DNA of 59,076 nt from a virus, in the IMG/VR virus record IMGVR_UViG_3300025466_000037, positions 1 to 59,076 of that record. One strand, given 5' to 3'. Below the pieces are notes generated by a model. It had not been told where the DNA came from. It did no database searches and worked only from the letters and a program-made list of their open reading frames with translations. Below are positions 1 to 59,076 of this stretch, in pieces (position 1 is the stretch's first letter; each line of letters opens with the position of its first letter). Both the position numbers and the translations under genes were made by a program.

Positions 1-901
1 TACCGAAGAGCGCTCTAGGATCTGTCCATCCTATTGCATAACGCTCAGTTGCTTTATAGCGCATAGAGTCAGTCTCGAAGTCACCTTCCATAGTCTTCTC
101 TAAACGTCTACGCATCAACAGCTTCATGCCTTCTGGTGCGTCTGTCTGTACCCACCATGCGGTAGATGAAGTCAAACGTGACAGAACAGCGGCACCCTCA
201 TCCAATAAGCCAATAGACTTAACGGGGTTGATGTCGTTGTTGGCAGTACCTGTACGCAATACTGATTTGAGCAACACTTCAGCTTGGAAAATGTTACCAG
301 GAGCCACGACCAATTGGCGTGGAACCAAGCGAATTTTCTTCTGATTGTTGTCAACAGCATTACGAATCTGAATCAACATTTGCTCTAAAGAAGTCTGTGA
401 CAAAACTGCCGCAGTAGACAACTGGTTAGAGAAAGTGCCGTTCACGATTGGGTGTGATGCGCTGATTAAAGATACACCATCACCACCAACATAGTTGGAG
501 TTGAAAGCGTTATTGAGCACGTTTGCGGCTAGTGTCTCTTTTGTCTCAATCAAAGACTGAGCTAAGTGACGAGCGTAAACTTGTCCAATACGGATATGGT
601 CGCCGTCTTCTACCAACACTTTAGTCAATGCAAAGGCAAGCCCATACACTGAGTAGATATAGCGTTGGAGGAAGAGTACACCACCTTGCTGATAGGACAC
701 TGGTGTTCCATCAGGCAGTTGAGGTGCGGCTCCAAATCCATAAAGAACTGGCTCTTCATGGTAGTTACGTGGAATACCTTCTTGTTCACGGAAAACACGT
801 GACCATTCGTCTTCACGGAGATCGTAAACGCCATCAAAACATTCGTTAAGGATAGGTTCGACAATACTTCTAAAGTCCGTACTTCGCATTGGTGCGGCCA
901 T
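1..901 (-). CDS. Major capsid protein, partial (left copy)
   Basis: The gene starts at 901 and runs off the left edge of the window, lacking only its last four residues and stop compared with the complete copy at 56850-57764. It is the same HK97-type major capsid protein with mostly synonymous changes, so the reading frame has been under selection in both copies. It follows the 912-1493 gene by ten bases and has an AAGGAG ribosome site. The truncation is an edge effect, not a pseudogene. Confidence 0.88.
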   Translation of the reverse strand, partial: MAAPMRSTDFRSIVEPILNECFDGVYDLREDEWSRVFREQEGIPRNYHEEPVLYGFGAAPQLPDGTPVSYQQGGVLFLQRYIYSVYGLAFALTKVLVEDGDHIRIGQVYARHLAQSLIETKETLAANVLNNAFNSNYVGGDGVSLISASHPIVNGTFSNQLSTAAVLSQTSLEQMLIQIRNAVDNNQKKIRLVPRQLVVAPGNIFQAEVLLKSVLRTGTANNDINPVKSIGLLDEGAAVLSRLTSSTAWWVQTDAPEGMKLLMRRRLEKTMEGDFETDSMRYKATERYAIGWTDPRALFG

Positions 902-911
902 AATTTACTCC

Positions 912-1493
912 TTAAGCGAACGCAGTGAAGCTACCGAACATCTGAGATGCTGATACAACAACACGAACGATAGTGTATGTATCGCCCCAAGCATTGCCTG
1001 GAACGGGCGAAAGATCAACAACACGCATTTGACCTTGTGAACTATTACCTACTGCTGTAGAAGCGCCTAGTGTCGCTTGTGACAGACCTGTGGTAGTAGA
1101 ACCATTGGTTATATTGCTGAAGTTGTACTCATTACCGATACTGGTTTGAGCCATAGATCCGTCTGCTTGGATTTCATAAACGATGTTGTTATCGTTGTAG
1201 AAATAAGCAATGCAAGATCCAGTGATGTATGTAGTACTGGCAGGCCAGTAGTTACTAACACGGCGGCGACCTGTTGAGTCTGTCCACTCGCAACCTGCAA
1301 ATGCGCCAGAAAACGCTTCTGTAGTTGATACGGGGACGATTACACCTGCTGACGCAGAGTATTTAACTGGCTGACCCTTCAAAATGTTTGAAGAGTATCC
1401 AGAAGTGATTCCTCCTGCTAACGCCTGAGCACGATCCAAACCTGATGGATGGAACGCAGGGCGTAAACCGAAGGGTTGCAATAATGCTGACAT
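912..1493 (-). CDS. Head-associated structural protein (left copy)
   Basis: The 193-residue protein is encoded directly upstream of the major capsid gene. It begins MSALLQPFGLRP and is rich in Ser, Thr, Ala and Gly, with a beta-type composition and no membrane segment. Position and composition fit a head decoration or stabilising protein; I recognise no named domain. The ATG at 1493 is preferred over an upstream TTG because AGGAG lies eight bases before it. The right copy (57775-58356) differs at about ten residues, among them S/A, C/V, M/V and F/V exchanges, so both copies look functional. Confidence 0.75.
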   Translation of the reverse strand: MSALLQPFGLRPAFHPSGLDRAQALAGGITSGYSSNILKGQPVKYSASAGVIVPVSTTEAFSGAFAGCEWTDSTGRRRVSNYWPASTTYITGSCIAYFYNDNNIVYEIQADGSMAQTSIGNEYNFSNITNGSTTTGLSQATLGASTAVGNSSQGQMRVVDLSPVPGNAWGDTYTIVRVVVSASQMFGSFTAFA

Positions 1494-1518
1494 ATGCAAA
1501 ACTCCTTAGTTACTTCAC

Positions 1519-2058
1519 CTACCCAGAAAATACGGGTGCGGGAAGTGGTTCATCAATTTTGCCAATACCTTCACCTTCTAGTCTTCCAAGTGACTTGCCA
1601 TTACTGTCTCGACCCATTGTTTGCTCCGCTTGGATGCGAATTTTGTTCGCTTCCTCAAGAGGCATATCATGGTGGAAGTGTTGCATTACTTCCTGATACA
1701 CATCCATAGGGATCTTGTACAGTAACATTTCGTTGCAAGACACATATCCAACGTGTTCACCTGATTTGACTTTGTGGCTTTCGTATTGTGGTACTTCCTC
1801 AGTTTTCACTGGGACGTATCCAAGACGAATCCGCTTGTCAATGCTGTCATATGAGTTAGTAGTTGATAACCAACACACGTGCCAACCAGGGATTTCAGGG
1901 ACATCTGGCAATGCTCTTTGTGTCCACTCATCACTCCACATCTTTCGGCGTTCCTGTGCTGAGACGAACTTCTCTTCTGGTGCCTTGCGGGATTCATCTT
2001 GCTGAGCACGATTCTGTCTACCGCCTGCATTCAAAGATTTTTTTAAACGTGATTCCAT
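1519..2058 (-). CDS. Conserved head-module protein (left copy)
   Basis: A 179-residue, charged and probably soluble protein lies between the scaffold and the decoration-like gene. It has a basic, Gln-rich N-terminus (residues 1-35), a central Trp-rich part (PGWHVCWLSTTNSYDS) and a polar C-terminus. The gene order scaffold, this gene, small head gene, capsid fits a head-assembly or completion role, but no domain is recognised. The copy at 58382-58921 differs by a few conservative changes (K/Q, I/V, Y/H, Y/F, S/A), which shows purifying selection. Confidence 0.7.
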   Translation of the reverse strand: MESRLKKSLNAGGRQNRAQQDESRKAPEEKFVSAQERRKMWSDEWTQRALPDVPEIPGWHVCWLSTTNSYDSIDKRIRLGYVPVKTEEVPQYESHKVKSGEHVGYVSCNEMLLYKIPMDVYQEVMQHFHHDMPLEEANKIRIQAEQTMGRDSNGKSLGRLEGEGIGKIDEPLPAPVFSG

Positions 2059-2060
2059 AA

Positions 2061-3026
2061 TTAATTACTCCTTTGTGAACGTGCTTCCATTGCATAACGC
2101 TTTATCATCTTTGCTCTCTTCTGGGGGTCATCCCAGAATCCTGCGTCCTTCATTGCTCTCACCTGTTCGGGGTTGAGTGTGAAGGTGTTACGGCCTGCAC
2201 TTGCCGCTGATGATTCACGTCCTGAACTCGTCACAACATTCCTAGGTCGTTGTCTAACTACAGGTTCATCGTCTGTGCTGTCATTGTATCTGTGCGGGAG
2301 ACGTCTTTGCAAGCGATTATCTAACTCATCCCAGTAGGCAGGATTCTTTGGGTCCCAACCCTCTTCGATCAGTCGTTTGTCAATAATCTTTGCAATCTCA
2401 GTATCCTCGTCACCGCTATCTGGGCTATACCAGTCATTACGTTTCATCCACTCTGCGGCGTTGCGCTGTATCTGTGGATCGGGCAGGCTACGGTCATTGT
2501 TTGGCTTAACCGCCTGAGTTTTCACGTTTTTCAGTGATTCGATCTTCTGTCTAGACTCGTACCACATCTCTTGCGCTTTAACCAAAGCCTCGCCATCACC
2601 CGCTTGAGTAGCCTCTTGAAGCTTGAGCTTGGCATATTGGAACTGAAGCTCAGCGTCCTCTATAGCCTTGTCAACCCTCGCTAATTCTGCGCCATGTGTG
2701 CGTCTTTCAACATTAGAGAGTCGTTCCATTAACTCACGGTTAACTCTTTCTAGTTGCTGAAGCTTGATATCCTTCTCGGCATGATCTTGCTTCGCTCTTT
2801 GACGGCGTAGTTTCCTACGGTTGATCTTCTCTTGACGTACCTCATCGGAGTCATCAGGATGATCGTTGTCCTCTGTTGAGGATTCTGCCTTGACACTTCC
2901 ACCTTCTGCTTCACTTTCGCTTGCATCGGGGCTTTTGATGTCATCTGGAAGGTCAACCACTGCTGAACCGTCCATCTCTTCTTTGACTTTTAAGTCTTCT
3001 TCTTTGCTTTCTGCTACTTCACTCAT
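2061..3026 (-). CDS. Probable scaffolding protein
   Basis: The 321-residue protein is very acidic at its N-terminus (residues 1-65). A long charged coiled coil follows (about 65-165, rich in E, K, Q, R and L), then a basic, Arg-rich C-terminal tail. Charged helical proteins encoded between portal and capsid genes are typically procapsid scaffolds that bind capsid protein through a basic C-terminus. No sequence-specific scaffold motif was identified, so the call rests on composition and position. The final 50 codons recur at the right edge of the window. Confidence 0.68.
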   Translation of the reverse strand: MSEVAESKEEDLKVKEEMDGSAVVDLPDDIKSPDASESEAEGGSVKAESSTEDNDHPDDSDEVRQEKINRRKLRRQRAKQDHAEKDIKLQQLERVNRELMERLSNVERRTHGAELARVDKAIEDAELQFQYAKLKLQEATQAGDGEALVKAQEMWYESRQKIESLKNVKTQAVKPNNDRSLPDPQIQRNAAEWMKRNDWYSPDSGDEDTEIAKIIDKRLIEEGWDPKNPAYWDELDNRLQRRLPHRYNDSTDDEPVVRQRPRNVVTSSGRESSAASAGRNTFTLNPEQVRAMKDAGFWDDPQKRAKMIKRYAMEARSQRSN

Positions 3027-3654: not shown

Positions 3655-3800
3655 TTTTTCTTACTTGTGTGAGCTAGGCCACTTTGTTTCTTCTGGCTTT
3701 CGCCTTTAGAACCCAAACTTGTCCCATCAAGCTTCTCGCCCTGGGCTAATCTCTTATGCATGGGCACGTTAATACCCTTTTGCTCTGCATCACTCGCCAT
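3651..3800 (-). CDS. Small basic protein after portal
   Basis: A 49-codon ORF begins MASDAEQKGINVPMHKRL and ends in a Lys/Ser-rich tail. It overlaps the portal 3' end by eleven bases and meets the next gene in an ATGA overlap. It has the tight spacing of its neighbours and fills an otherwise empty stretch, which supports it as a real gene. Function unknown. Confidence 0.6.
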   Translation of the reverse strand: MASDAEQKGINVPMHKRLAQGEKLDGTSLGSKGESQKKQSGLAHTSKKK

Positions 3801-6339
3801 GTTGACCTCCTAAGTGTCGTTGTGCTTCGTTTTGAAGCGAAATTGCAGTGTCATACTGCTCTTGCTGAAGCTTAGCGGCGTCTCGGGTGAGTTCCGCTGA
3901 AGCTATACGCTCTTTTGTCAGGTTATCAGTAGAGTTGATAGCTATATCTAACTCCCTTTGTGCCTGCTCTCTTTGTTGTTCGCTAGTAATCTTGGCCTGC
4001 TCAAGCTGTGTATCAGCCTGGATCTGCTGACCCTTGAGTGCCATCTCTTGCTTATCACGCTCGGTTCTGCGCTGTGTCTCAGCCATTGAGGTCTGGATGA
4101 GCGCTTGTGCGTCTGGATCAAGCTGTGGCTTGGGTGCAAACTGCTGTTGCATCTGGATAAGATGCTGAAAGTCTGGTACCAACTGTGCAAATACCTTCTC
4201 ACCTAAATCGTGACCAACGTGCTGTGATGCCATAGCAAATATCTGGTCAATCTGAGCCGTGTATTTTTCATTTTCGTACTGAATAGACTGCTTTCTGTCG
4301 CTTTGAGTAGCGTACTTTTTCATCATCTCAAGGTATAAGAGCGTGATGTGCTGTCTCAAATGCTCAATCATTGGCCCAATCAACTGCGGTCCGATAATCG
4401 GGTTCTGTCCTAGCAATGGGTTCATCACAAAGTCAAAGTGCCCTTGGATGTGAGCCAACTGATCTTGCTCAGGATAAGCAAACGCTCCCTGACCCAAGGA
4501 CATAGCCACGTTCTCTTCTGCAACATTGTGCTTATGTGGCTCAGCCGCATCAACCATTAACTCGTTAATGCCAGGCACCTTCATCTGCTTTAAGAATCTC
4601 TCAAGCACAGCCTTCTGGTTGAACTGGGCAGGATACTTATCCATCAGCGCCATTACGGCCTGAGACTGAGCCATCCTCTGCGTTTCAGAGAAGATGTGTG
4701 GATCAGAGACTGGAACTACATCTGTGTTGCGCTCAAAGTCTTGCTTGGTTATCTGCAAGTCCTTGACAATCTCACCCTTGCGCTGATCATCCAAGTACCA
4801 ACGGTTCAGCCTACCAAGAATCTTAAGCACTCTGGCTTGTGAGTCATGAAGTCTGGCGTGGATAGCTGAGAACACAGCAGATCCCTGCTCAATAAGGGCT
4901 TGTGTGGTACCTACAGGCGCTTGAGCGGTAACGTCAGCTATCTTCTCCTCAGCCGTGGTTACAACGCCCTTGGCGGCCTGATCTAACCACCCCAATAACT
5001 CAAATAGTACAGGGCTAGGAGGGTTAAAAGGCATAGGCATAGCGATTTGCCTAATGTCATTGATTCCTGGTCCTGCCTCAATTTCTGCAACTTGGGTAAC
5101 TTCAACTTGCTGAGATTGACCACTAACCTTAGCGCCTTTAAGCTTAAGCATAGTAGCGCTGTTGTTGATATGTGCAGTATCGAGCAAAGCACGAAGAGCG
5201 CCAGTAAGGGCGGCACTAAGACCGCCAATAAGATGAGGTAAACCAACTGCATATGCGCCCCTCCAAGGAATGAACTTGAACTCCACAACCCAGTCTAGCT
5301 TGGTCATGGTTTCGTCCCCGTCTTCCCAGTTACGATACAACCCGACAACTTCATGGTCTAAAGTGTCAATCATCAGAATATAAGGTGCCATCTCGCCCTT
5401 GGTATATTCGTCATCTTCCATCTCTAGCCAAACATAGGTGTGATAGAAACGTCTAACACCATCCTCGTTGTCTTGCCACTTCTTACCTTCAATCTTGTCG
5501 TTAGCCTTTTGTGCACCCGTTGGCTCTGGCTCCATAGTCGCACGGATCATGCTAATGTCACGGTACATACCCGACTTGATACGCATCTTGACTTCCCACT
5601 CGGTAATCTCGTGAACCTCAGTTGCACGCTGAGCGGTATAGAAGTTGGATGCGGCGAAGGGTACGATCACACGGTCAATCGGCAGAAACTCCACGCAGGG
5701 GCGCTTCTTGTGCTCGTCATACCACAGCTTAAGGTATTGGGAACCCCCAAGAGGAAGTTGGGTCAACAACTGCTCTTGTTCATCACGGAATTCCTCAATC
5801 TGCTCGGTGAGTTGCCAGTTCATGTAATCCCGTTTGCGCTCAGCACGTTCGGTCTTTACATCATCAACATCACCCAATATCTTTGTCCTGACTGGGCCAT
5901 CAGGTGGGAACATCTCTTTAATCGCTCTGGACGCAAAGTCTACGCAAGACTCAGCCATCACTGGGTGAACAACTTTAGAAGCTCCAAAGAAGGTCGCACC
6001 ACCTGGGCTATCGTTACCCATACCAGTACGTTTAATACCGTCCTCATACTGCTTATCCCGCATCTTACGGGCTTCTTTATCCTTCTCAATCAGGTTGATG
6101 TATTCAAGGGCTAATCCCTTAACATCAAACTCTTCAGCCAAGTTAGCGTAGAACTTTTTGTCATCAGTCGGGCCTTTGAAGTCTGGATCGTGAACAATAA
6201 CAGAACCATCAGGAAGCTCTTCAAGCTCCATATCCTCTGGTGGCATCTCAAAATCGACTGAGCCGTCTTCATTCTCAATCATTTCCATTCCGTCAATATG
6301 ACGGTTGTAGTCCTGCTCAATGGGCATTTGTGTTGCCAT
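3790..6339 (-). CDS. Portal protein
   Basis: The 849-residue protein is of the large portal type found in podoviruses. The portal is the dodecameric ring through which DNA enters and leaves the head. An acidic N-terminal 70 residues precedes a body rich in Trp and Tyr (for example SQYLKLWYDEHKKRPCVEF and VGLYRNWEDGDETM). The last 150 residues form a long Gln/Glu/Ala-rich helix of coiled-coil type, resembling the barrel of long portals. Gene order TerS-TerL-portal-scaffold-capsid supports the call. The start has an AGAGGATAAAC ribosome site directly behind the stop of the giant gene. Confidence 0.85.
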   Translation of the reverse strand: MATQMPIEQDYNRHIDGMEMIENEDGSVDFEMPPEDMELEELPDGSVIVHDPDFKGPTDDKKFYANLAEEFDVKGLALEYINLIEKDKEARKMRDKQYEDGIKRTGMGNDSPGGATFFGASKVVHPVMAESCVDFASRAIKEMFPPDGPVRTKILGDVDDVKTERAERKRDYMNWQLTEQIEEFRDEQEQLLTQLPLGGSQYLKLWYDEHKKRPCVEFLPIDRVIVPFAASNFYTAQRATEVHEITEWEVKMRIKSGMYRDISMIRATMEPEPTGAQKANDKIEGKKWQDNEDGVRRFYHTYVWLEMEDDEYTKGEMAPYILMIDTLDHEVVGLYRNWEDGDETMTKLDWVVEFKFIPWRGAYAVGLPHLIGGLSAALTGALRALLDTAHINNSATMLKLKGAKVSGQSQQVEVTQVAEIEAGPGINDIRQIAMPMPFNPPSPVLFELLGWLDQAAKGVVTTAEEKIADVTAQAPVGTTQALIEQGSAVFSAIHARLHDSQARVLKILGRLNRWYLDDQRKGEIVKDLQITKQDFERNTDVVPVSDPHIFSETQRMAQSQAVMALMDKYPAQFNQKAVLERFLKQMKVPGINELMVDAAEPHKHNVAEENVAMSLGQGAFAYPEQDQLAHIQGHFDFVMNPLLGQNPIIGPQLIGPMIEHLRQHITLLYLEMMKKYATQSDRKQSIQYENEKYTAQIDQIFAMASQHVGHDLGEKVFAQLVPDFQHLIQMQQQFAPKPQLDPDAQALIQTSMAETQRRTERDKQEMALKGQQIQADTQLEQAKITSEQQREQAQRELDIAINSTDNLTKERIASAELTRDAAKLQQEQYDTAISLQNEAQRHLGGQHGE

Positions 6340-6341
6340 GT

Positions 6342-9300
6342 TTATCCTCTATCGATTAATTCGTGACGCATAATATTTATGTTGTTAGTTATTTCAACCT
6401 TGGCTTTTTTGTTTGCCTTTTTAGCTTTAACCTTGCCACCCTTTTTCTGACCCGTGTACTTCTTGATCAAAGCATCATATCTGCCAACGTCATTTAAATA
6501 TTGATCATCAACAACTTGATGTGGAAATACTTTTTGAAGAGTTCCAGTAAAGTCTTGGGCACGTTTTGTATCAAGAATATGCTGAGTAGCGTCTGGAAAA
6601 GTTATTTGAACTGGCTTGGGAGGAGTTATTGGTTGTAATGCTAAACCTCGGATGCCTTTTTCATAAGTATTGTGATCAGCAGTATCCGTTAATTCAGCGC
6701 CAGGCACAACCTCACCCGCAGACAAACCCGTCATGTTAATTTGCATATTACGAAGCGAAGGTTCTGTAATAGCCCATTGAATATCTAATCCATTTGGTAA
6801 TCCATGAGCACTGGTAATCTCAGGAGTCTTCATCCTGCTGTTATACCATTTACGTAGTTCAGAATCTTTTTGCATGGCTTTGTAAGCGCCTTCTGGGTCA
6901 GCTATTCCAGGCCAGTGTGGAAAGTTGAAATGCTCGTATTCACCAGTCTTAGCATTTTTCTTTACAAATCCATTGGCAATAATGTTATCAAAGCTGTACA
7001 TCTGCTCTGGAGTCATTTTTGAAAAATCAGTAGCACGAAGATTTGCATCTGCTAAATGCATTGCAAAATTATTAGATGTAGGACCCATCGCTAAATGTTG
7101 AGCAATTACTCGATCAGGATCGTAATAACCTGCAAGTCTATTTATTTTGTCTTGAGCACTTTGAGCGGGATCTTCACCAGAAGCCCAAAAGTTTGGCAAT
7201 TTTAAATGTAACTTGCCCAATCCGTATTTAGCACCACCTTCCTGCTCTGAATCTATCCCTTCTATATCTCCAACACTATGCAATATACTGTCAGATATAG
7301 TTTGATCTCCAGGGAAAGCAATATTTACATCTCCAATCTTTGGTGTATATATATCAGGTTTTCCTGTAGGCTCTTTGGTTGTCAAAGAATAAGGTAGATC
7401 CTTAAGCCTTTGACTTTCCTTCATTGATCGTCCTGCAAGATTAACTTTCTTGGTAGATCCTTCAGGTACTACGTGCTCACCAGTCATTTGTCTAATGACA
7501 GGCTCTGCAATTTTCATCATCTCTTGATCATTTGGAGATTTTGCTCTTTTTAAATTTAAAGGCAAAAAAGATTCTTTAGACGATTTCTTAATAAAATCGC
7601 CCATTTTCTTGAGGACGGCATCAGTCATTACCCCACCCTCAGACATATGGATCTCGTGTCTCATCATCTCCAAATCATCCGCTACGTGGACTTTTCCACC
7701 TCTTTGGTAATTTGGCATGAACTCCAAAGGATTAAGCGTTACCTGCCCATTAGCCAGTCTTAATGATGGGTTTAAGAATGACTCATGCCTTGGCTGAGCC
7801 ACTTGTCCACCATCAGCATACGCAGGCAGACTGTTCTCTCCTACTCCTTGCTTCATCTCTGGGGTGAACTCCATGTAGTGCAGAGGAGTTGTCTTATTGT
7901 TTTGGGCAGTAGCGAAGTCATCCATCATCTTCTCTTTCTGCTCAAAAGGCATATCCAACCATGTTTGCTCAGGCGTATTGGTGTGCTGAAGCATATCAGT
8001 GATGGATAAGTCAGTGTTTTTTGGCGTACGTACTGGCATAGCGTTCAGCTTCATCTCAGCGCCGTATGGCTTACCAATGTCGTTGAAGACATTTGGTAGG
8101 CGCTTGTCATAAGCCTCCTTCATGCCTTCGCCTAAATACAAATCTTCACCTGTCAGTGACCGCAATGTTCCTTGTTGTGGCTGATCTAATAACTTTTTAG
8201 CCGCCTTCTTACCAACATATTGATTTAAATTTTTTGGTGTAACACCAGTTTGTTTTATGACCGTATTTCCATTGTGATCATAGCCAACTAAATCAGTACC
8301 AGACAAATGAAGTTCGTTTATGTATTTGCCAAGGTTATATCTATCCGCTTGCGTTTCACCATTAGTCAATGTTATGCCGTCATACCCATTGTCAACAGCG
8401 TGTTTGACCAAGTCCTTGCTAACCATCTCTTCCCAGTTCTTTTTGAATGGAGCATCAGGCACATGGTCAGAGGGCATGATGGTGGCATCACGAATCTGAT
8501 CCATGATTGCCAATCTTTGTTCGCTGATGGCTTCACGTTCTTCGGGAGTTTTGGCTAACGCTTTGACTTCACCAAGACGCTTATGCTCTGCCTTCAATGC
8601 GTTGATTGTGGCTTCTGCTTGAGCCAGTTTTTCTGGATCGTGATATCCCTTATCCCTACCTGCTTGATGCCAGTCAGACTGCATTTCCTCAACGTGGAGG
8701 ATCTTCTTGCCTTCTGGAGTCATGCGGTCAACAGTACGAGCATGAGCCAATACGTTTGGAATATCTTCCCAATGTGAGCTTTCATACTCCTCTGGATGGT
8801 TGGACAACTGGTACAAATGTTCCTGATAGTTATCACCACCAGGTAATTTATAAGAAGAATACCTTGGAATATTGTTATCAGTCTCTTTAAGATCATTGAC
8901 ATATGATTGAGCATCATGTCTTGTCATGAAAGGCTCTTCATTAACTTTTTGCCAATTCTCATCATACAACCAGTGAGGATCTCTTGGCCTTGCCATATCT
9001 GGATCAACTGGTTCTATGTAATATTTATCGGCGTTATTTTCGCTCAGTATCTTCTTAGTTACTTGGGGCACAGGACGCTTGGCAAGTTCAGCTTTGAACT
9101 CATCCTTCGTCATCTTGGGTAATGCTTTGATCTCATCCAAGTTTCTATCAGCCAATTCAGCCTTCTTAACGCCAGGCTTCTTGCTAAGCTCTGTCATGAA
9201 TTCAGCGCCAGTACCCTTGGCTCTTGGCAACTCAGCCGCAGTCTTATCCACAGCAGAGAATAGCCTAGCCATTCCCTTGCCAATCATCTTATCTACAACA

Positions 9301-11873
9301 CCACCGCCTGCAAATCCTTTGGGGCTATCCTTCATCTGGATCTCATGGCGCATCATATCCAAGTCATTAGCAACATGAACCTTGCGCTTAACTCTTCCGC
9401 CTTTAGCTAGGCCTTGTGTCTCTTGAGGGGTTACAGCAGGAACATCTCCTACTTTGTTACGCAGTTCATCAATTTTTCCAAGAGTATATAGTTGAGTTTT
9501 TAATGGATCACCTTCACCATGTTCTTCTGGATTGTTCAATACTGATTTAAATTCATTATATGTATAAGGAATATCTGGATGTAACGGTTGATTACTAGCA
9601 TTTCGTAATTTAGAGTATTGTTCTTCATCTTTGAAAAACATACCATTATTAAGAGCACTATTAAATACTTCATTCGCTTGGCGATGAGGTTCAAATGCAG
9701 GATGAGTATCTAAAAAATTGTTTGCGTTTTTAACCGTTGACTCAACATGAGGAGCAACTTGTTGGCGTAAAACATTTTCTTCGTCTTTAGTTAAATAATC
9801 TGGCACCTTTAAACCAATACTTTCTCCAAATTTTTTTAACTCAGGTTGAGTATTAACAAATCCAGAGTTTTGTATATCTCCTTTAATTGGAAATCCAGTA
9901 GTACGTTGGAAGTCTTGCACCATAGGCAAGTACTTATCTACAGGTGCTCCATTACCTTTGCCTTTAATTTGATGAATGTTTGGTGTTCTTGAGTTTGCGT
10001 TTAACTCCTCAAGCTTTGAAGCTATATATTTTTTTGCGCCAATATCTCCTCTTTTAAGAGCATCTGTTACTCCACCAGGGAATTGATCAAGCACATCATC
10101 TTCAGTATATATTTTTGGATTTCTAGCTTCAATTGTTACGTGAGGCTCACCACGCTTATCTCTTAATGAGAATATTCTTGTGTTGCCTTGCAATACGTCA
10201 GGACAATAGCCACCAACACAGTGACCCATCTTATCGCCTTCATATGTCAATGCGTCTTCAAGTTGTTTCTGACGCTCTTCTCTTTTGTAAAGATTAACAG
10301 CTTCTTCGGGAGTTGAGCCAACAGATACTGATTGACCAGTTTTCGAATCAATTACTGCATGAAGATCAGGATAACCAGAAGGATGACCCATAACATGGGA
10401 TTCTTCTATTTTGGGATCAGGCATCTTAAGCTCAATCCACTTGTGACCAGATGGATACTCTTTAAGAACAGGAAAGCCTTCTTGCTGTTGTAACGCTACG
10501 TTACGACTTGCAATATCTTTCTCTAAGTTTTGGTTAGCCACACGTTCCATCATCTGTGGAACGCTTATGTTCTTGAGTTGCTCAGGCTTGAGATGATACT
10601 TATCGCCTTCAGGCAAATCCAAATGCTGTTTGATCGTATCTACAACGTGATCAAAGCCAAGATCGTTAGCAAAGTTACGAGGATCAGATACTGAATAAAT
10701 ATTTTTATCTTTAAGACCCAAAAGCTCAGGCTGTTCTTTACTTATAGTTTTGTAATGCTGTTCATATGGATCGTTCAGTCTATTGCTATTAAGTCTATCT
10801 AAAGCATTGTCAGAAACAAACTCCCAAGCATTTGAAGGCTTTGTAGTTGACATACCTTCAAATCTAGAGATGTTATCTCCAAATCTAAAGTTTTCATGTG
10901 GTACATGAGCAGAATGCTTCATGCCCAACTCATAAGCATCTTCAGCTTCAATTGCCAAATTATCTCTGGCGGCCTGCATAGTTCTTACAGCACCTTCATC
11001 ACCAGATTGTTTGGCCTGAGCAATCTTCTCATCTAACTTAGCTATCTTCTTTTGCTCTTTAGCGTTGTTGGCCTCAACCTTGGCTACTCGTTCCTCAATG
11101 CCCAAGCGAATTGGGTCATGAGGTGTGGCCATATCATTACGAACATAATTTTTGAGGTTGGTATCAATCCATTGGTTTAATGCGCCAAGCTTCTTAAACT
11201 TATCTTTGTTATCTTCTAGATGTTTAACGACACGCAATCCACCTTCGCTACCTATATCTTTTAGCTCTTTGATTCGTTCTTCAACAGCTTTATCGTGTTC
11301 TGGGCCGTAATAATAAGTTTTATTCTTTAATAAGGTATCTTGTTTTAATTTATCTAAAGCAGAGTTAACCTGCTTATTTACCCAGTTACCACCCTTCTCA
11401 GGCTTGATAACGTGCATAGCCATCTGTGGCTCACCAACTCCAGGGATAAGTCGTTGACCAGTAGCAACCCTATCAGCAATCTCCTGCCCAAGCATCTTTG
11501 CACCCTTTGTGGCGGCTGTACCCGCTCCTGGGATAACAGCGAAGTCACCTGCTGTGCTTGCCATCTTGTTAAGCATTGAGTTGGGGTCTTTGGCTAGGTC
11601 AGGGATCAATCCCTTGATATCCTCAGAGCCACCAGATATAGATCCTGGCTGATATCCTTCAAACTTGTTACGGCGAATGTCGTGCGCCATATTGTGCAAA
11701 CCAATAGCTGTGTTAGCCAGATCAGCAGGCAATCCCGCTGTGGTGGCAATAGCACTGCGTCCACCAGAGTAGATCATGTCCAGTAACGCTCTAGCAGGTA
11801 TGCCCATGCTCATTGCATCGGCTTTGATTCTGTCTAGATCTAGGGGTTGTTGGTTTGCTTTAGGGTTTGGCAT
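6342..11873 (-). CDS. Giant polyvalent protein with PcfJ-like domain and triple MRHE[IL] tag
   Basis: This 1843-residue protein lies between the acyl carrier protein and portal genes. Around residue 549 it has MGHCVGGYCPDV followed by RIFSLRD and HQIKGKGN, the pattern of PcfJ-like domains. From about 1060 (HVEEMQSDWHQAGR, then DAPFKKNWEEM and NGYDGITLTNGE) it carries a domain familiar from phage polyvalent proteins. The third part (about 1410-1835) is not recognised. Each part ends with a basic GG stretch and a tag: HVANDLDMMRHEI near 840, HVADDLEMMRHEI near 1403, and NNINIMRHELIDRG at the very C-terminus. Polyvalent proteins are thought to be packaged and injected; that role is inferred here from family and position. 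The ATG at 11873 is preferred to a TTG at 11885, whose ribosome site is too close. Confidence 0.8.
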   Translation of the reverse strand: MPNPKANQQPLDLDRIKADAMSMGIPARALLDMIYSGGRSAIATTAGLPADLANTAIGLHNMAHDIRRNKFEGYQPGSISGGSEDIKGLIPDLAKDPNSMLNKMASTAGDFAVIPGAGTAATKGAKMLGQEIADRVATGQRLIPGVGEPQMAMHVIKPEKGGNWVNKQVNSALDKLKQDTLLKNKTYYYGPEHDKAVEERIKELKDIGSEGGLRVVKHLEDNKDKFKKLGALNQWIDTNLKNYVRNDMATPHDPIRLGIEERVAKVEANNAKEQKKIAKLDEKIAQAKQSGDEGAVRTMQAARDNLAIEAEDAYELGMKHSAHVPHENFRFGDNISRFEGMSTTKPSNAWEFVSDNALDRLNSNRLNDPYEQHYKTISKEQPELLGLKDKNIYSVSDPRNFANDLGFDHVVDTIKQHLDLPEGDKYHLKPEQLKNISVPQMMERVANQNLEKDIASRNVALQQQEGFPVLKEYPSGHKWIELKMPDPKIEESHVMGHPSGYPDLHAVIDSKTGQSVSVGSTPEEAVNLYKREERQKQLEDALTYEGDKMGHCVGGYCPDVLQGNTRIFSLRDKRGEPHVTIEARNPKIYTEDDVLDQFPGGVTDALKRGDIGAKKYIASKLEELNANSRTPNIHQIKGKGNGAPVDKYLPMVQDFQRTTGFPIKGDIQNSGFVNTQPELKKFGESIGLKVPDYLTKDEENVLRQQVAPHVESTVKNANNFLDTHPAFEPHRQANEVFNSALNNGMFFKDEEQYSKLRNASNQPLHPDIPYTYNEFKSVLNNPEEHGEGDPLKTQLYTLGKIDELRNKVGDVPAVTPQETQGLAKGGRVKRKVHVANDLDMMRHEIQMKDSPKGFAGGGVVDKMIGKGMARLFSAVDKTAAELPRAKGTGAEFMTELSKKPGVKKAELADRNLDEIKALPKMTKDEFKAELAKRPVPQVTKKILSENNADKYYIEPVDPDMARPRDPHWLYDENWQKVNEEPFMTRHDAQSYVNDLKETDNNIPRYSSYKLPGGDNYQEHLYQLSNHPEEYESSHWEDIPNVLAHARTVDRMTPEGKKILHVEEMQSDWHQAGRDKGYHDPEKLAQAEATINALKAEHKRLGEVKALAKTPEEREAISEQRLAIMDQIRDATIMPSDHVPDAPFKKNWEEMVSKDLVKHAVDNGYDGITLTNGETQADRYNLGKYINELHLSGTDLVGYDHNGNTVIKQTGVTPKNLNQYVGKKAAKKLLDQPQQGTLRSLTGEDLYLGEGMKEAYDKRLPNVFNDIGKPYGAEMKLNAMPVRTPKNTDLSITDMLQHTNTPEQTWLDMPFEQKEKMMDDFATAQNNKTTPLHYMEFTPEMKQGVGENSLPAYADGGQVAQPRHESFLNPSLRLANGQVTLNPLEFMPNYQRGGKVHVADDLEMMRHEIHMSEGGVMTDAVLKKMGDFIKKSSKESFLPLNLKRAKSPNDQEMMKIAEPVIRQMTGEHVVPEGSTKKVNLAGRSMKESQRLKDLPYSLTTKEPTGKPDIYTPKIGDVNIAFPGDQTISDSILHSVGDIEGIDSEQEGGAKYGLGKLHLKLPNFWASGEDPAQSAQDKINRLAGYYDPDRVIAQHLAMGPTSNNFAMHLADANLRATDFSKMTPEQMYSFDNIIANGFVKKNAKTGEYEHFNFPHWPGIADPEGAYKAMQKDSELRKWYNSRMKTPEITSAHGLPNGLDIQWAITEPSLRNMQINMTGLSAGEVVPGAELTDTADHNTYEKGIRGLALQPITPPKPVQITFPDATQHILDTKRAQDFTGTLQKVFPHQVVDDQYLNDVGRYDALIKKYTGQKKGGKVKAKKANKKAKVEITNNINIMRHELIDRG

Positions 11874-11907
11874 AGCACCTCGCAATATTCCTTTGAGTGT
11901 ACCCTTG

Positions 11908-12141
11908 CTAGATACTATTAATCAATGTGCAAAGCTCTTCAACCGTTAACTCAACCTGCTCAGGCTTTATGGCTGATTCAGGGATCTTCTTACCAATCAA
12001 GTCCTCAGCATCAAACAGCACCTCAATGAATACCAGTGAGTCAAGCCCCAAGTCAGATACCCTAGCATCTGGCGTTATATTGTTTGGGTTGATGTTGTAC
12101 TTGTTAACCAGTAAATCTTTAAATTGGTCGAATGTAATCAT
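11908..12141 (-). CDS. acpP: Acyl carrier protein
   Basis: The 77-residue protein has the size and four-helix pattern of acyl carrier proteins. It shows the phosphopantetheine attachment motif LGLDSLVFIEV, with Ser35 as the expected modified residue, followed by an acidic helix II. These proteins carry acyl chains as thioesters for fatty-acid synthesis and acyl transfer. The gene lies between TerL and the giant polyvalent gene, about 20-35 bases from the latter, and has an AAAGGAAC ribosome site. No acyl-synthesis or acyltransferase gene is recognised beside it, so it probably relies on the host holo-ACP synthase and serves an unknown phage purpose. Confidence 0.88.
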   Translation of the reverse strand: MITFDQFKDLLVNKYNINPNNITPDARVSDLGLDSLVFIEVLFDAEDLIGKKIPESAIKPEQVELTVEELCTLINSI

Positions 12142-12165
12142 TTAGTTCCTTTTGGGTGGGGTGGT

Positions 12166-12276
12166 TCACATAAAGCAGTGTTTGTTACCAATTCGACTCT
12201 TAAACCATAAAAAATGATTGTTGAACGATGATGTGGCGCTAACCCACAACTCCACCCCATCGCTATCATACCGCAT
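12166..12276 (-). CDS. Possible 36-residue ORF after terL
   Basis: This short reading frame starts inside the last codons of terL and fills much of the 120-base gap before the acyl carrier gene. No good ribosome site is visible and no motif is recognised, so it may be chance. Otherwise the gap 12142-12265 holds only the ACP ribosome site. Confidence 0.25.
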   Translation of the reverse strand: MRYDSDGVELWVSATSSFNNHFLWFKSRIGNKHCFM

Positions 12277-13711
12277 ATGGATTGACCCTTGGTTGGGGGT
12301 TGGCATCAATGTAATCTTCCTCATCGTAGTCTTCACGTGGAGGTGGATCAATGTTCAGGAATCCTGCGTCTCTAAGCCATCTAAGAGCCTGTGTGAGCGA
12401 ATCAACGTAATCGTCATGTGTTGCGTCAGGGAACGCACAGATCTGGCTTATAGCCCCTTCTGCCCAGTCCCTTACATATCCTTTGTTCATGCTTGACTCT
12501 GGCACCCAAACCCTACCTGCCCGTATGATATTGGCAACAATTGATAACCGCTGAACTTTGTCTGCCTTGCCTGGGTTGTAGCTTTGTACGGGTAACTGTG
12601 CCCTTTGCAAGTCTTGGATCAAGCTGATGCCTGCGGCTTTGTCCTCCACCAGAATCATCTCAACTCGCTTCTTATCCTTGCCCTCACCGTATACAGTCTC
12701 AAACTCATCCATCACCTTGGGCTTGAGATCTGGGTATTGCAGGTGGTCTTGCCAGGCATCGAGGATGAGCACTGACATCGGACCATCCATCGGTTTGAAT
12801 ACACCGAAAGTGATACACGCTGTTGGGTCATTGTGCGCCTTCTCAGTGAATGCACAGTCATAGCTTTGCAAGATGAACTCAAACTTGGGCAGAGGCATTG
12901 GCTCACCCTGAGAGTTGTAGGCAGGGAATAGTTTGAACCATTTGCGCTTGACGATACCTGTTAGCTCAGGGTCTAAGATCTCAGCCAACACCTCCTGGCG
13001 ATACAGTGCAGACTCAGGGTCGTACTGCTCGATCTGCTTGCGGAAGTTTGCTGATAGGTTGTCAATGTTGGCGTAGGTGGATGCTGTGGTCAGGGCTACA
13101 TCACTCCCGTTTCTACCTACCAGATCAACAATCAGATCTTTGGGCTTGGGCGTTGTCGTACATACAACTTGGGTCTTGTCTCCCAAACGGATGGAGAAGC
13201 TGAGCAGATCCCAGGCTTCCTGTAGATAATCCCACGCCGCCAACTCATCTAGCCAACCCCCGTGGAACTGTGGCCCCCTGAAGCGCTCAGGCTCCGATGC
13301 GGGTATGCCTTTGATGATTGAGCCGTTGATCAGGGTAATCTCGTTATCGTCCTTCAGGTGCTTCTTAATCAAGATCTGAGGTATGACGTTGGTCAGTCCT
13401 GAGTCACCCATAAAGCACACATCCTTCAGGTCTGAGTGTGTTGGCGCTCCAACTAGCCACCGAGTCTTGGGATTAGTCCAAGCCTTCCAGAACGTCCACT
13501 CTGCCGCAAGCCTAGTCTTCCCTGCGCCCCGTCCACCGAGCACCATCCAAATAGACCAGTCCCAACTCGGGGGAACCTGGTGATCATGGGCAATACTCAG
13601 CCACTTGATCCTTGCGGCGTAAGCCATCTGCTCTTCAGGTGGGAGTACAGCGAAGTGAGCCTTCACCTCGGGGTCGGTCAATATCTCTATGACCTCATCA
13701 AGATCCTGCAT
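12266..13711 (-). CDS. terL: Terminase large subunit
   Basis: The 481-residue packaging motor ATPase/nuclease has a Walker A motif GGRGAGKT (59-66), an acidic Walker B-like WLDELAAWD and the coupling motif CTTTPKP. The C-terminal nuclease half contains QSYDCAFTEKAHNDPTA, ILVEDKAAG and HDDYVDS, the acidic residues expected in RNase H-like TerL nucleases. It moves DNA into the procapsid through the portal and cuts concatemers. It overlaps the terS stop by fourteen bases. Length and motifs look complete. Confidence 0.93.
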   Translation of the reverse strand: MQDLDEVIEILTDPEVKAHFAVLPPEEQMAYAARIKWLSIAHDHQVPPSWDWSIWMVLGGRGAGKTRLAAEWTFWKAWTNPKTRWLVGAPTHSDLKDVCFMGDSGLTNVIPQILIKKHLKDDNEITLINGSIIKGIPASEPERFRGPQFHGGWLDELAAWDYLQEAWDLLSFSIRLGDKTQVVCTTTPKPKDLIVDLVGRNGSDVALTTASTYANIDNLSANFRKQIEQYDPESALYRQEVLAEILDPELTGIVKRKWFKLFPAYNSQGEPMPLPKFEFILQSYDCAFTEKAHNDPTACITFGVFKPMDGPMSVLILDAWQDHLQYPDLKPKVMDEFETVYGEGKDKKRVEMILVEDKAAGISLIQDLQRAQLPVQSYNPGKADKVQRLSIVANIIRAGRVWVPESSMNKGYVRDWAEGAISQICAFPDATHDDYVDSLTQALRWLRDAGFLNIDPPPREDYDEEDYIDANPQPRVNPYAV

Positions 13712-14243
13712 TCGATGCCTGTTTTTTAAGGGTCAAATGCTCAACCACTGTATCCATTGCGCTCTTGGCTGTAACGACAATCTCGCTTTGCAGTGGGTTT
13801 TCCTTATCCCCTGCAATCGTTGTCCTATCCCCATACTTCTTAGGCTTGAGCTTCATAGCCGTCCATTTACGGGCATCTATGCGGTTTCTTTGCCATTGGA
13901 TGTAGGAGTTGCTCAGTTCCATCCTGATTAGCTCACCAGTCCTGCGGTCAATCACTGGCTCTGTATCTGGGGTTTCGTCAGCTATTTGGAGGATCTCATC
14001 AGCAATGGTGTCGGCTTGATCTTCCCGTGCACGTGCGTATTGCTCAGCAAACTCTGGATGAACAATCAACCACTCATAGATCGTAGCCTGACTTGGGAAC
14101 TTTCCTATCTTCTCATCCGCCTTCAGGATTTGTCTAACACTCATACCATTACTGATGAGGGTACAGATCTCTGCCGCTATTTGGGGCGTATATTTTGTTG
14201 GGCGTCCACCCTTGTTCTTGGGCTTTTCGGTTACGTTATCCAT
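13698..14243 (-). CDS. terS: Terminase small subunit
   Basis: The 181-residue protein has an N-terminal helix-turn-helix region beginning NKGGRPTKYTPQIAAEI. It contains QATIYEWLIVHPEFAEQYARA, followed by a helical oligomerisation region and a basic end (KPKKYGDRTTI). This is the usual pattern of small terminase subunits that recognise phage DNA and load TerL. The ATG at 14243 is chosen over a TTG at 14264. The next gene, terL, overlaps its end. Confidence 0.85.
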   Translation of the reverse strand: MDNVTEKPKNKGGRPTKYTPQIAAEICTLISNGMSVRQILKADEKIGKFPSQATIYEWLIVHPEFAEQYARAREDQADTIADEILQIADETPDTEPVIDRRTGELIRMELSNSYIQWQRNRIDARKWTAMKLKPKKYGDRTTIAGDKENPLQSEIVVTAKSAMDTVVEHLTLKKQASNAGS

Positions 14244-14284
14244 ATTATTCCAATGTCGAACCAAGTTAATGCCTGTATTGTATA

Positions 14285-56849: not shown

Positions 56850-57764
56850 TTACACGCCAGGTGTACCGAAGAGCGCTCTAGGATCTGTCCATCCTATTGC
56901 ATAACGCTCAGTTGCTTTATAGCGCATAGAGTCAGTCTCGAAGTCACCTTCCATAGTCTTCTCTAAACGTCTACGCATCAACAGCTTCATACCTTCTGGT
57001 GCGTCTGTCTGTACCCACCATGCGGTAGATGAAGTCAAACGGCTCAGAACAGCGGCACCCTCATCCAATAAGCCAATAGACTTAACGGGGTTGATGTCGT
57101 TGTTTGCTGTACCAGTACGTAAAACTGACTTGAGCAACACTTCAGCTTGGAAAATATTGCCTGGAGCCACAACCAACTGGCGTGGTACCAAACGAATTTT
57201 CTTCTGGTTGTTGTCAACAGCGTTACGAATCTGAATCAACATTTGCTCTAAAGAAGTCTGTGACAACACTGCGGCTGTAGACAACTGGTTAGAGAAAGTG
57301 CCGTTCACGATTGGGTGTGATGCGCTGATTAAAGATACGCCGTCGCCACCAACATAGTTGGAGTTGAAAGCGTTATTGAGCACGTTTGCCGCTAAAGTCT
57401 CTTTTGTCTCAATCAAAGACTGAGCTAAGTGACGAGCGTAAACTTGACCAATACGGATATGGTCGCCGTCTTCTACCAACACCTTTGTCAATGCAAAGGC
57501 AAGCCCATACACTGAGTAGATATAGCGTTGGAGGAAGAGCACACCACCTTGCTGATAAGACACTGGAGTGCCATCAGGAAGTTGGGGAGCGGCGCCAAAT
57601 CCATAAAGGACTGGCTCTTCGTGGTAGTTACGTGGAATACCTTCTTGTTCACGGAAAACACGTGACCATTCGTCTTCACGGAGATCGTAAACGCCATCAA
57701 AACATTCGTTAAGAATCGGTTCGACAATACTTCTAAAGTCCGTACTTCGCATTGGTGCGGCCAT
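56850..57764 (-). CDS. Major capsid protein (complete copy)
   Basis: The 304-residue protein has an HK97-type capsid layout. An N-terminal helical arm (STDFRSIVEPILNECFDG) leads to a long helix near LIETKETLAANVLNNAF, then SHPIVNGTFSN, LVVAPGNIFQAEVLLKS and MLLMRRRLEKTMEGDFETDSMRYKATERYAIGW-type strands in the P domain. The order scaffold, two head genes, then this gene, and the terminator behind it fit the most abundant virion protein. The partial left copy differs by few residues. Confidence 0.85.
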   Translation of the reverse strand: MAAPMRSTDFRSIVEPILNECFDGVYDLREDEWSRVFREQEGIPRNYHEEPVLYGFGAAPQLPDGTPVSYQQGGVLFLQRYIYSVYGLAFALTKVLVEDGDHIRIGQVYARHLAQSLIETKETLAANVLNNAFNSNYVGGDGVSLISASHPIVNGTFSNQLSTAAVLSQTSLEQMLIQIRNAVDNNQKKIRLVPRQLVVAPGNIFQAEVLLKSVLRTGTANNDINPVKSIGLLDEGAAVLSRLTSSTAWWVQTDAPEGMKLLMRRRLEKTMEGDFETDSMRYKATERYAIGWTDPRALFGTPGV

Positions 57765-57774
57765 AATTTACTCC

Positions 57775-58356
57775 TTATGCAAATGCTGTTACGCTACCAA
57801 ACATCTGAGATGCGGCTACGACAACACGAACAATAGTGTATGAATCGCCCCAAGCATTGCCTGGAACGGGCGAAAGGTCAACAACACGCATCTGACCTTG
57901 GGTGTTATTACCAACTGCTGTAGAAGCGCCTAGTGTCGCTTGTGACAGACCTGTAGTAGTAGAACCGTTAGTTATGTTGGTGAAGTTGTACTCATTACCG
58001 ATAGCGGTTTGAGCGACTGAACCGTCTGCTTGGATTTCATAAACGATGTTGTTGTCGTTATAGAAATAAGCAATACAAGATCCAGTAATGTAAGTTGTAC
58101 TGGCAGGCCAGTAGTTAGATACACGACGACGACCTGTAGAGTCAGTCCACTCAACACCCGCAAACGCACCAGAGAAAGCTTCTGTGGTAGCTACGGGAAC
58201 GATTACACCTGCTGACGCAGAGTATTTAACTGGTTGACCCTTCAAAATGTTTGAAGAGTAGCCAGAAGTGATTCCTCCTGCTAACGCCTGAGCACGATCC
58301 AAGCCTGATGGATGGAACGCAGGGCGTAAACCGAAGGGTTGCAATAATGCTGACAT
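57775..58356 (-). CDS. Head-associated structural protein (right copy)
   Basis: This is the second copy of the 193-residue protein at 912-1493, with AGGAG before ATG 58356. It has V in place of C in the SGAFAG(V/C)EW segment and several S/A, M/V and S/T exchanges. It is complete and probably equivalent in role, next to the complete capsid gene. Confidence 0.75.
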   Translation of the reverse strand: MSALLQPFGLRPAFHPSGLDRAQALAGGITSGYSSNILKGQPVKYSASAGVIVPVATTEAFSGAFAGVEWTDSTGRRRVSNYWPASTTYITGSCIAYFYNDNNIVYEIQADGSVAQTAIGNEYNFTNITNGSTTTGLSQATLGASTAVGNNTQGQMRVVDLSPVPGNAWGDSYTIVRVVVAASQMFGSVTAFA

Positions 58357-58381
58357 ATGCAAAACTCCTTTGTTACTTCAC

Positions 58382-58921
58382 CTACCCAGAAAATACGGGT
58401 GCGGGAAGCGGTTCATCAATCTTGCCAATACCTTCACCTTCTAGTCTTCCTAGTGCCTTGCCGTTACTATCACGACCCATTGTTTGCTCTGCTTGGATGC
58501 GAATTTTGTTCGCTTCCTCAAGAGGCATATCATGGTGGAAATGTTGCATAACCTCCTGATACACATCCATAGGGATCTTGTACAGTAACATTTCATTGCA
58601 AGACACAAATCCAACGTGCTCACCTGATTTGACTTTGTGGCTTTCGAAATGGGGTACTTCCTCAGTCTTCACTGGGACGTATCCAAGACGAACCCGCTTG
58701 TCAATGCTGTCATATGAGTTGGTAGTGGATAACCAACAAACGTGCCAACCAGGGATTTCAGGGACATCTGGCAATGCTCTTTGTGTCCACTCATCACTCC
58801 ACATCTTGCGACGTTCCTGTGCTGAGACGAACTTCTCTTCTGGGGCTTGGCGGGATTCATCTTGCTGAGCACGATTCTGTCTACCGCCTGCATTCAAAGA
58901 TTTTTTTAAACGTGATTCCAT
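58382..58921 (-). CDS. Conserved head-module protein (right copy)
   Basis: This is the second copy of the 179-residue protein at 1519-2058, with five or so conservative replacements and many silent changes. Intact frame and start. No domain recognised. Confidence 0.7.
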   Translation of the reverse strand: MESRLKKSLNAGGRQNRAQQDESRQAPEEKFVSAQERRKMWSDEWTQRALPDVPEIPGWHVCWLSTTNSYDSIDKRVRLGYVPVKTEEVPHFESHKVKSGEHVGFVSCNEMLLYKIPMDVYQEVMQHFHHDMPLEEANKIRIQAEQTMGRDSNGKALGRLEGEGIGKIDEPLPAPVFSG

Positions 58922-58923
58922 AA

Positions 58924-59076
58924 TTAGTTACTCCTTTGTGAACGTGCTTCCATTGCATAACGCTTGATCATCTTTGCTCTCTTCTGGGGGTCATCCCAGA
59001 ATCCTGCGTCCTTCATCGCTCTCACCTGTTCTGGATTAAGCGTAAAGGTATTGCGGCTTGCGCCTGCCGCAGATGA
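58924..59076 (-). CDS. Scaffolding protein, partial (right copy)
   Basis: This is the C-terminal 50 codons of the scaffold-like protein, cut by the window edge. It encodes the same basic end (MKDAGFWDDPQKRAKMIKRY...) as the complete gene at 2061-3026. Confidence 0.7.
   Translation of the reverse strand, partial: SSAAGASRNTFTLNPEQVRAMKDAGFWDDPQKRAKMIKRYAMEARSQRSN

Follow-up and report, generated by a model that had tools for sequence, protein, structure and literature searches.

An acyl carrier protein gene as an exchangeable cassette between terminase and a giant gene, and its neighboring structured RNA element, in a viral genome

The analysis of a 59,076-nucleotide stretch of viral DNA (IMG/VR record IMGVR_UViG_3300025466_000037, positions 1 to 59,076; hereafter the window) reveals that its acyl carrier protein (ACP) gene behaves as a cassette. 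Its position, between the terminase large subunit gene (terL) and the gene that follows, is fixed; some close relatives carry it and others lack it, and recombination has swapped it between phages. We favor, at a probability of roughly 0.55, the reading that this ACP is an accessory (moron) gene of the late operon whose product would be modified by the AcpS of the host and would take part in host lipid metabolism as an auxiliary carrier of acyl groups. The features that make up the cassette and its edges are as follows.

11908-12141, minus strand: ACP gene, 77 amino acids, with Ser35 in LGLDSL (PF00550, alignment and predicted fold)
11896-11910, minus strand: conserved 15-base TAGCAAGGGTACACT, which supplies the stop codon (TAG) of the ACP gene
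12147-12267, minus strand: structured RNA element, immediately upstream of the ACP gene (covariance model R1, 65.4 bits, E 5e-19, the window copy being one of the 60 sequences behind the model)

The ACP gene is an intact member of the ACP family under purifying selection. It starts with ATG, its LGLDSL motif occupies residues 31-36, and its Pfam match to PF00550 (PP-binding; E 1.9e-7), the sole such match in the whole record, scores 31.7 bits and lies above the cut-off of 20.8. The best PDB sequence match is 4dxe (E 3.1e-7), which by its entry title is the ACP of an AcpS-ACP complex, and chains of 4dxe also head the Foldseek comparison of the AlphaFold2 model with the PDB (TMq 0.78-0.80). This model, built on a 7-row alignment with a mean predicted local distance difference test (pLDDT) score of 88.4, places helices at residues 4-15, 28-31, 35-49, 60-64, and 67-76, and the predicted fold is a four-helix ACP bundle. 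Across the 7 aligned sequences, 33 columns are invariant, with D34-S35-L36 among them. The complete ACP with a DSL motif that the initial annotation had placed in the packaging cluster was thus upheld by family score, invariant Ser35, and predicted fold. In protein identity to the window ACP, the alleles fall into an L011 group (61-63%) and an L015 group (51-53%). When the window allele is one of the pair, synonymous divergence (dS) has reached saturation, and the comparison between the L011 and L015 groups, the one in which dS is neither saturated nor tiny, yields a nonsynonymous divergence (dN) of 0.33, a dS of about 1.06, and a rough ratio of 0.3. A spurious open reading frame (ORF) was ruled out by the family match, the fold, and the selection.

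The distribution of the gene was examined among the best 80 of 414 stretches related by TerL, where a profile built from the ACPs and run against all 80 loci found an ACP in 17. An ACP search of viral contigs likewise gave 17 loci, an alignment query returned the same 17 contigs, and PF00550 detected the same 17 among 50 of the 80 terL-locus records that were searched whole (the records omitted being mostly short contigs), with 33 of the 50 lacking a match. All 17 carriers have a TerL 95-100% identical to that of the window. Of 31 loci with a TerL identity of 86% or more, 11 (L026-L035 and L063, 86-90% in the best segment) have a fully read interval with no ACP, and three whose contigs stop within terL or at its end (L024, L025, and L036) were left uncounted. 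The gene therefore shows the presence and absence at one site with conserved flanks that define a moron or accessory cassette (17 with, 11 without). That the ACP is uncommon in phages, as had been proposed, is in line with the PF00550 searches of 50 other phage records (48 carriers of the RNA element, MW202545, and Caulobacter phage RW) and of 50 further records bearing the conserved block of the giant protein described below, which gave 0 matches in each set.

The edges of the cassette are sharp and are kept in the relatives that lack the ACP. The 15-base TAGCAAGGGTACACT occurs once each in 17 of 17 ACP-bearing and 11 of 11 ACP-less near relatives and, being retained without the gene, marks the downstream edge. 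Among 11 ACP-bearing sources tested, 8 have the RNA element as the upstream edge; L015-L017 have no RNA element, and their ACP overlaps terL. Promoter-like and terminator-like sites around the cassette were no more frequent than expected from shuffled sequences. The identities of ACP and terL are discordant between pairs of genomes: the window and L003 share 99.6% of ACP nucleotides (1 base in 234 differs) and 92.1% of terL, L011 and L012 share 97.8% and 88.5%, respectively, and L012 and L017 share 95.2% of terL versus 68.0% of ACP. Such discordance indicates that ACP alleles have been exchanged by recombination, and this recombination is independent of both terL and the giant gene. Other genes occupy the gap between terL and the giant gene in relatives, including a 239-amino-acid gene (phrog_7084, of unknown function) at 2394-3113 of L003 and 2594-3313 of L004, a 69-amino-acid gene at 2072-2281 of L003 and another of that length in the gap of L004, and further small genes elsewhere. 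This variety points to an accessory-gene site. With close relatives that have or lack the ACP, three alleles, and sharp edges, the locus is a clean natural experiment in which, given a host, effects of presence, absence, and allele could be traced to a single gene.

The surprise of the locus is the covarying RNA element and not the ACP. The element consists of a covarying outer stem of about 11 pairs, a hairpin with an invariant GUUAGCG loop, and an invariant CACUGCUUUAUGUG; by our own reading of the sequence, the two invariant parts could form kissing pairs (AGC/GCU) with each other. At least 120 viral contig stretches match the pattern GTTAGCG-22..52-CTGCTTTATGTG, versus 1 for the reversed pattern, and we see the stems in all of the 120 listed copies except L185, giving at least 119 viral contigs. 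Copies are present in the window, L003, L004, L011, L012, L014, L018, L023, L026-L035, L063, and L105-L224 without L185, so that the ACP-less near relatives carry the element too, 5' of their giant gene. An alignment of 59 of the 120 copies (near-duplicates removed, and L185 omitted as having no stems) together with the window was folded with RNAalifold, which predicted 13 pairs, 10 of them with changes on both sides. The best outer helix averages 10.9 pairs, compared with 6.6 after reassignment of the 3' sides among the sequences, across 58 distinct stems. Of 28 records scanned over their full length, 25 contain exactly one copy, all of these being already-known carriers of the element, and the reversed control gave 0 of 28. 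The genes beside the element differ between phages, and gene strand around 119 RNA loci is mostly the same in 75, mostly opposite in 13, and mixed in 31. Rfam 15 gave no match to the element in the window or at 13 further loci, where tRNAs were the only hits, and a blastn search of one copy against 50,697 phage records returned 22-base matches only (E 3). We did not find the element described in the literature searched, including the available portion of PMC2864571, which is no proof that it is unpublished. Of the two, the element may be the more valuable find. In two more distant relatives (L069 and L086), a different hairpin-like sequence, GCCGTTTxCTCATGC ... AGCGGCTTTT, lies in the corresponding gap, just 3' of terL.

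To consider how the ACP could function, its proposed role as an auxiliary carrier was weighed against the content of the genome and the sequence of the protein. In the favored reading, the ACP would be co-expressed with the late packaging genes, and host AcpS would add 4'-phosphopantetheine to Ser35, a step suggested by the best structural match being an ACP solved with AcpS. The holo-ACP could then provide the fatty-acid synthase, PlsX, and lipid A acyltransferases of the host with an additional acyl carrier or sink and might thereby shift acyl supply late in infection. Pfam scans of 87 proteins of the window genome (sets of 5, 10, 10, and 62, hand-chosen from 268 ORFs of at least 50 amino acids) detected no ketosynthase, acyltransferase, thioesterase, adenylating enzyme, phosphopantetheinyl transferase, or fab family; on these scans, an ACP with biosynthetic genes of its own was rejected, and they extend to the chosen proteins genome-wide the earlier remark that no neighbor is a fatty-acid enzyme. 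With no acyl enzyme seen among these 87 proteins, the ACP would probably draw on the lipid enzymes of the host. Several points weigh against this role. The window ACP falls below the cut-off in all 13 matching NCBIfam models, which identifies it as a divergent ACP and no plain housekeeping AcpP copy, and it may consequently serve fatty-acid synthase poorly. It also carries V37 in helix II, where E. coli AcpP has D38, and K51-K52 in the loop after helix II, where classic AcpP is acidic. Finally, the presence and absence of the gene, including the 11 near relatives without it, mean that related phages live without the ACP.

The main rival to the auxiliary carrier is a decoy or regulator that acts by binding, acylated or not, and that would slow host lipid synthesis or tilt ppGpp signaling during infection by occupying AcpS, fatty-acid enzymes, or SpoT. 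The divergence from AcpP fits such a role, as do the acidic side chains kept at positions 40, 46, and 47 across the alleles, the isoelectric point of 4.1-4.2, and the use of helix II as the ACP contact with both SpoT and fatty-acid enzymes, as described in the available portion of PMC3340395; an invariant DSL serine in the 7 aligned sequences is, however, needless for a pure binding decoy, and we regard this explanation as unlikely. A neutral or host-benefiting passenger, kept by recombination and with no role in the lytic cycle, would agree with the accessory distribution and frequent allele exchange, but the core of the protein is kept in alleles at 51-63% identity to that of the window and the dN/dS between the L011 and L015 groups is near 0.3, which makes a passenger quite improbable. 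A role in acylating or lipidating a virion protein, suggested by the location within the packaging and structural cluster, is highly improbable given that no known acyltransferase family appears among the 87 proteins and that the ACP is missing from near relatives that have the same terL.

In the remaining rival, the ACP is dedicated to the adjacent giant protein, either donating acyl groups to it or docking with it. This reading bears on the undescribed two-gene system suggested in the initial annotation, where the giant protein is a putative injected effector. The giant gene and its conserved part are located as follows.

6342-11885, minus strand: giant gene, an ORF of 1847 amino acids from TTG, with a likelier start at ATG 11873 (reading of the sequence)
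7644-9275, minus strand: conserved block of the giant protein, residues 871-1414 from TTG (GNAT-like predicted fold)

The giant gene directly follows the ACP in 16 of 17 ACP loci, the L009 contig ending before it, so that the two adjoin in 16 of 16 loci whose contig continues. Acyl-ACP is a substrate of some enzymes with a GNAT fold, LuxI-type synthases among them, and the conserved block has a predicted GNAT-like topology. Against a pair, a downstream ORF matching the giant protein by BLAST was found in 48 of the 80 loci, 16 with and 32 without an ACP; many records are fragments, and the co-occurrence should be read with that caveat. In L033, which has no ACP, the giant protein aligns with that of the window over residues 1-1847 at 56%, and one ACP allele occurs beside different giants, as in L003, where the ACP is one base from that of the window and the giant protein shares mainly residues 871-1414. 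The block itself is widespread, being confirmed in 563 of 600 candidate stretches, of which the best 80 were kept, and the 50 block-bearing records without a PF00550 match exclude known ACP carriers and the contig of L032. The GNAT match, moreover, lies at the level of the fold and involves no sequence family. On these co-occurrence and allele-exchange tests, a dedicated ACP-giant pair was rejected, and adjacency to the giant gene is not evidence for a two-gene system; the donor or docking role is accordingly very unlikely. The earlier proposal thus stands in its complete and uncommon ACP without acyl enzymes nearby and fails in its two-gene system, for which absence of the pairing from relatives had been named as a refuting outcome.

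The GNAT-like predicted fold of the block is what keeps a link between ACP and an acyltransferase as a low-probability reading. The AlphaFold2 model of the block (14 sequences) has a mean pLDDT of 71.8 and a predicted template modeling (pTM) score of 0.61. Its best Foldseek match is not significant (E 0.066), with GNAT folds among many of the weak matches, while in VIA-align 49 of the 50 listed entries are GNAT-fold, judged by title and our own reading, the best with Z 10.1 and a root-mean-square deviation of 3.3 over 144 residues. By our reading of the model, the order of strands and helices fits a GNAT fold with large insertions. The block has no PDB sequence match at E <= 10. Among 22 Pfam families listed for it, one is named for an acetyltransferase (Hisat_C, E 0.16, 1 of 14 members), and Acyltransf_C matches at E 0.011 in 5 of 14 members, both below a meaningful score; the one family that the block clearly matches is phrog_7348, which bears the name endolysin. 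It could be imagined, though we consider this barely credible, that the block is a GNAT-like N-acyltransferase that takes its acyl group from ACP and not from coenzyme A, mostly using host ACP, and that this lineage added a dedicated ACP behind the RNA element for times of host acyl-ACP shortage. The block carries the motifs PGGxNYxE, EIQSDW, PDAPFK, NGYD, and GGEGMKxxYD, and a PcfJ-like stretch lies at residues 545-589 of the giant protein (counted from TTG). A repeat search in the giant protein gave short two-copy pairs only. A KVHVADDxDMMRHE-like motif occurs several times in the window giant and at other positions in relatives, including the N-terminus of the L026 and L028 giants, and is perhaps a sorting or processing signal.

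Phage ACPs with unclear function have already been published, and the window ACP is ordinary in kind. In the available portions of the sources, Erythrobacter phage vB_EliS-R6L has an ACP gene whose function is called unclear (PMC5463345), ACPs are listed in Alteromonas phage R22Y (PMC11705849) and Vibrio phage R16F (PMC10152775), and three roseobacter (Rhodobacteraceae) prophages carry fabG-acpP-fabF together (PMC8224337), whereas the window phage has its ACP alone. These same portions present phage ACPs mostly as auxiliary metabolic genes, without a functional test, and make no mention of an ACP gene lodged between terL and a giant gene. A literature search for the wording "phage-encoded acyl carrier protein" verbatim gave no match. 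With AcpP (PF00550, TIGR00517), the phage ACP shares fold, length, DSL attachment serine, and acidity; it differs in scoring 32.0 bits against the TIGR00517 cut-off of 70.45, in being one residue shorter before DSL, in its basic K51-K52, and in having no fab genes beside it among the 87 proteins scanned. By analogy, its role may resemble that of AcpB, the auxiliary ACP of Enterococcus faecalis beside the housekeeping ACP. AcpB is non-essential and 30% identical to AcpA, acyl-AcpB is a substrate of PlsX and enoyl-ACP reductase, and AcpB alters lipid regulation, as the available portion of PMC6509188 reports. Both would be divergent, non-essential second ACPs next to a housekeeping ACP; in contrast to the phage protein, AcpB is chromosomal and tied to FabT regulation. 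Structural matches in a viral library (Achromobacter phage Motura, Olleya phage Harreka_1, Pseudomonas phage pf16, Salmonella phage ViI, and Caulobacter phage Seuss) have TMq values of 0.51-0.77, none at E <= 0.001, and the match to the phage ACP family phrog_5934 is weak (E 0.042), as are four unannotated phage-collection matches at 33-36% identity. A scan of cellular genome contigs for ACP relatives gave one weak locus at 25% identity. Plasmid matches, at 40-44% identity over 45-50 residues, are ACPs of Caballeronia and Xanthomonas whose genes adjoin those for beta-ketoacyl synthases, and are too short for the origin of the phage ACP to be inferred.

Around the cassette and the giant gene, the gene order is terS, terL, ACP, giant, and portal-like gene, with the following neighbors.

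13698-14264, minus strand: terminase small subunit gene, terS (PF20901, E 3e-35)
12266-13711, minus strand: terL (PF03237, E 3.7e-24; PF17289, E 3e-8)
3790-6339, minus strand: portal-like protein gene (phrog_1216, E 2.6e-19)

This order is that of a phage group to which belong the circular record MW202545 (57,457 bp, TerL 62.5%) and, more distantly, Caulobacter phage RW (TerL 40.8%), in which a tRNA-Val directly follows terL and no giant-sized gene occupies that place; PF00550 has no match in either. The first 2213 bases of the window (1-2213) match the last 2213 (56864-59076) at 93.5% identity with no gaps, which implies that the genome is about 56.9 kb long and circular or circularly permuted, with the contig running past its own starting point; the two contig ends apparently derive from two different strain variants.
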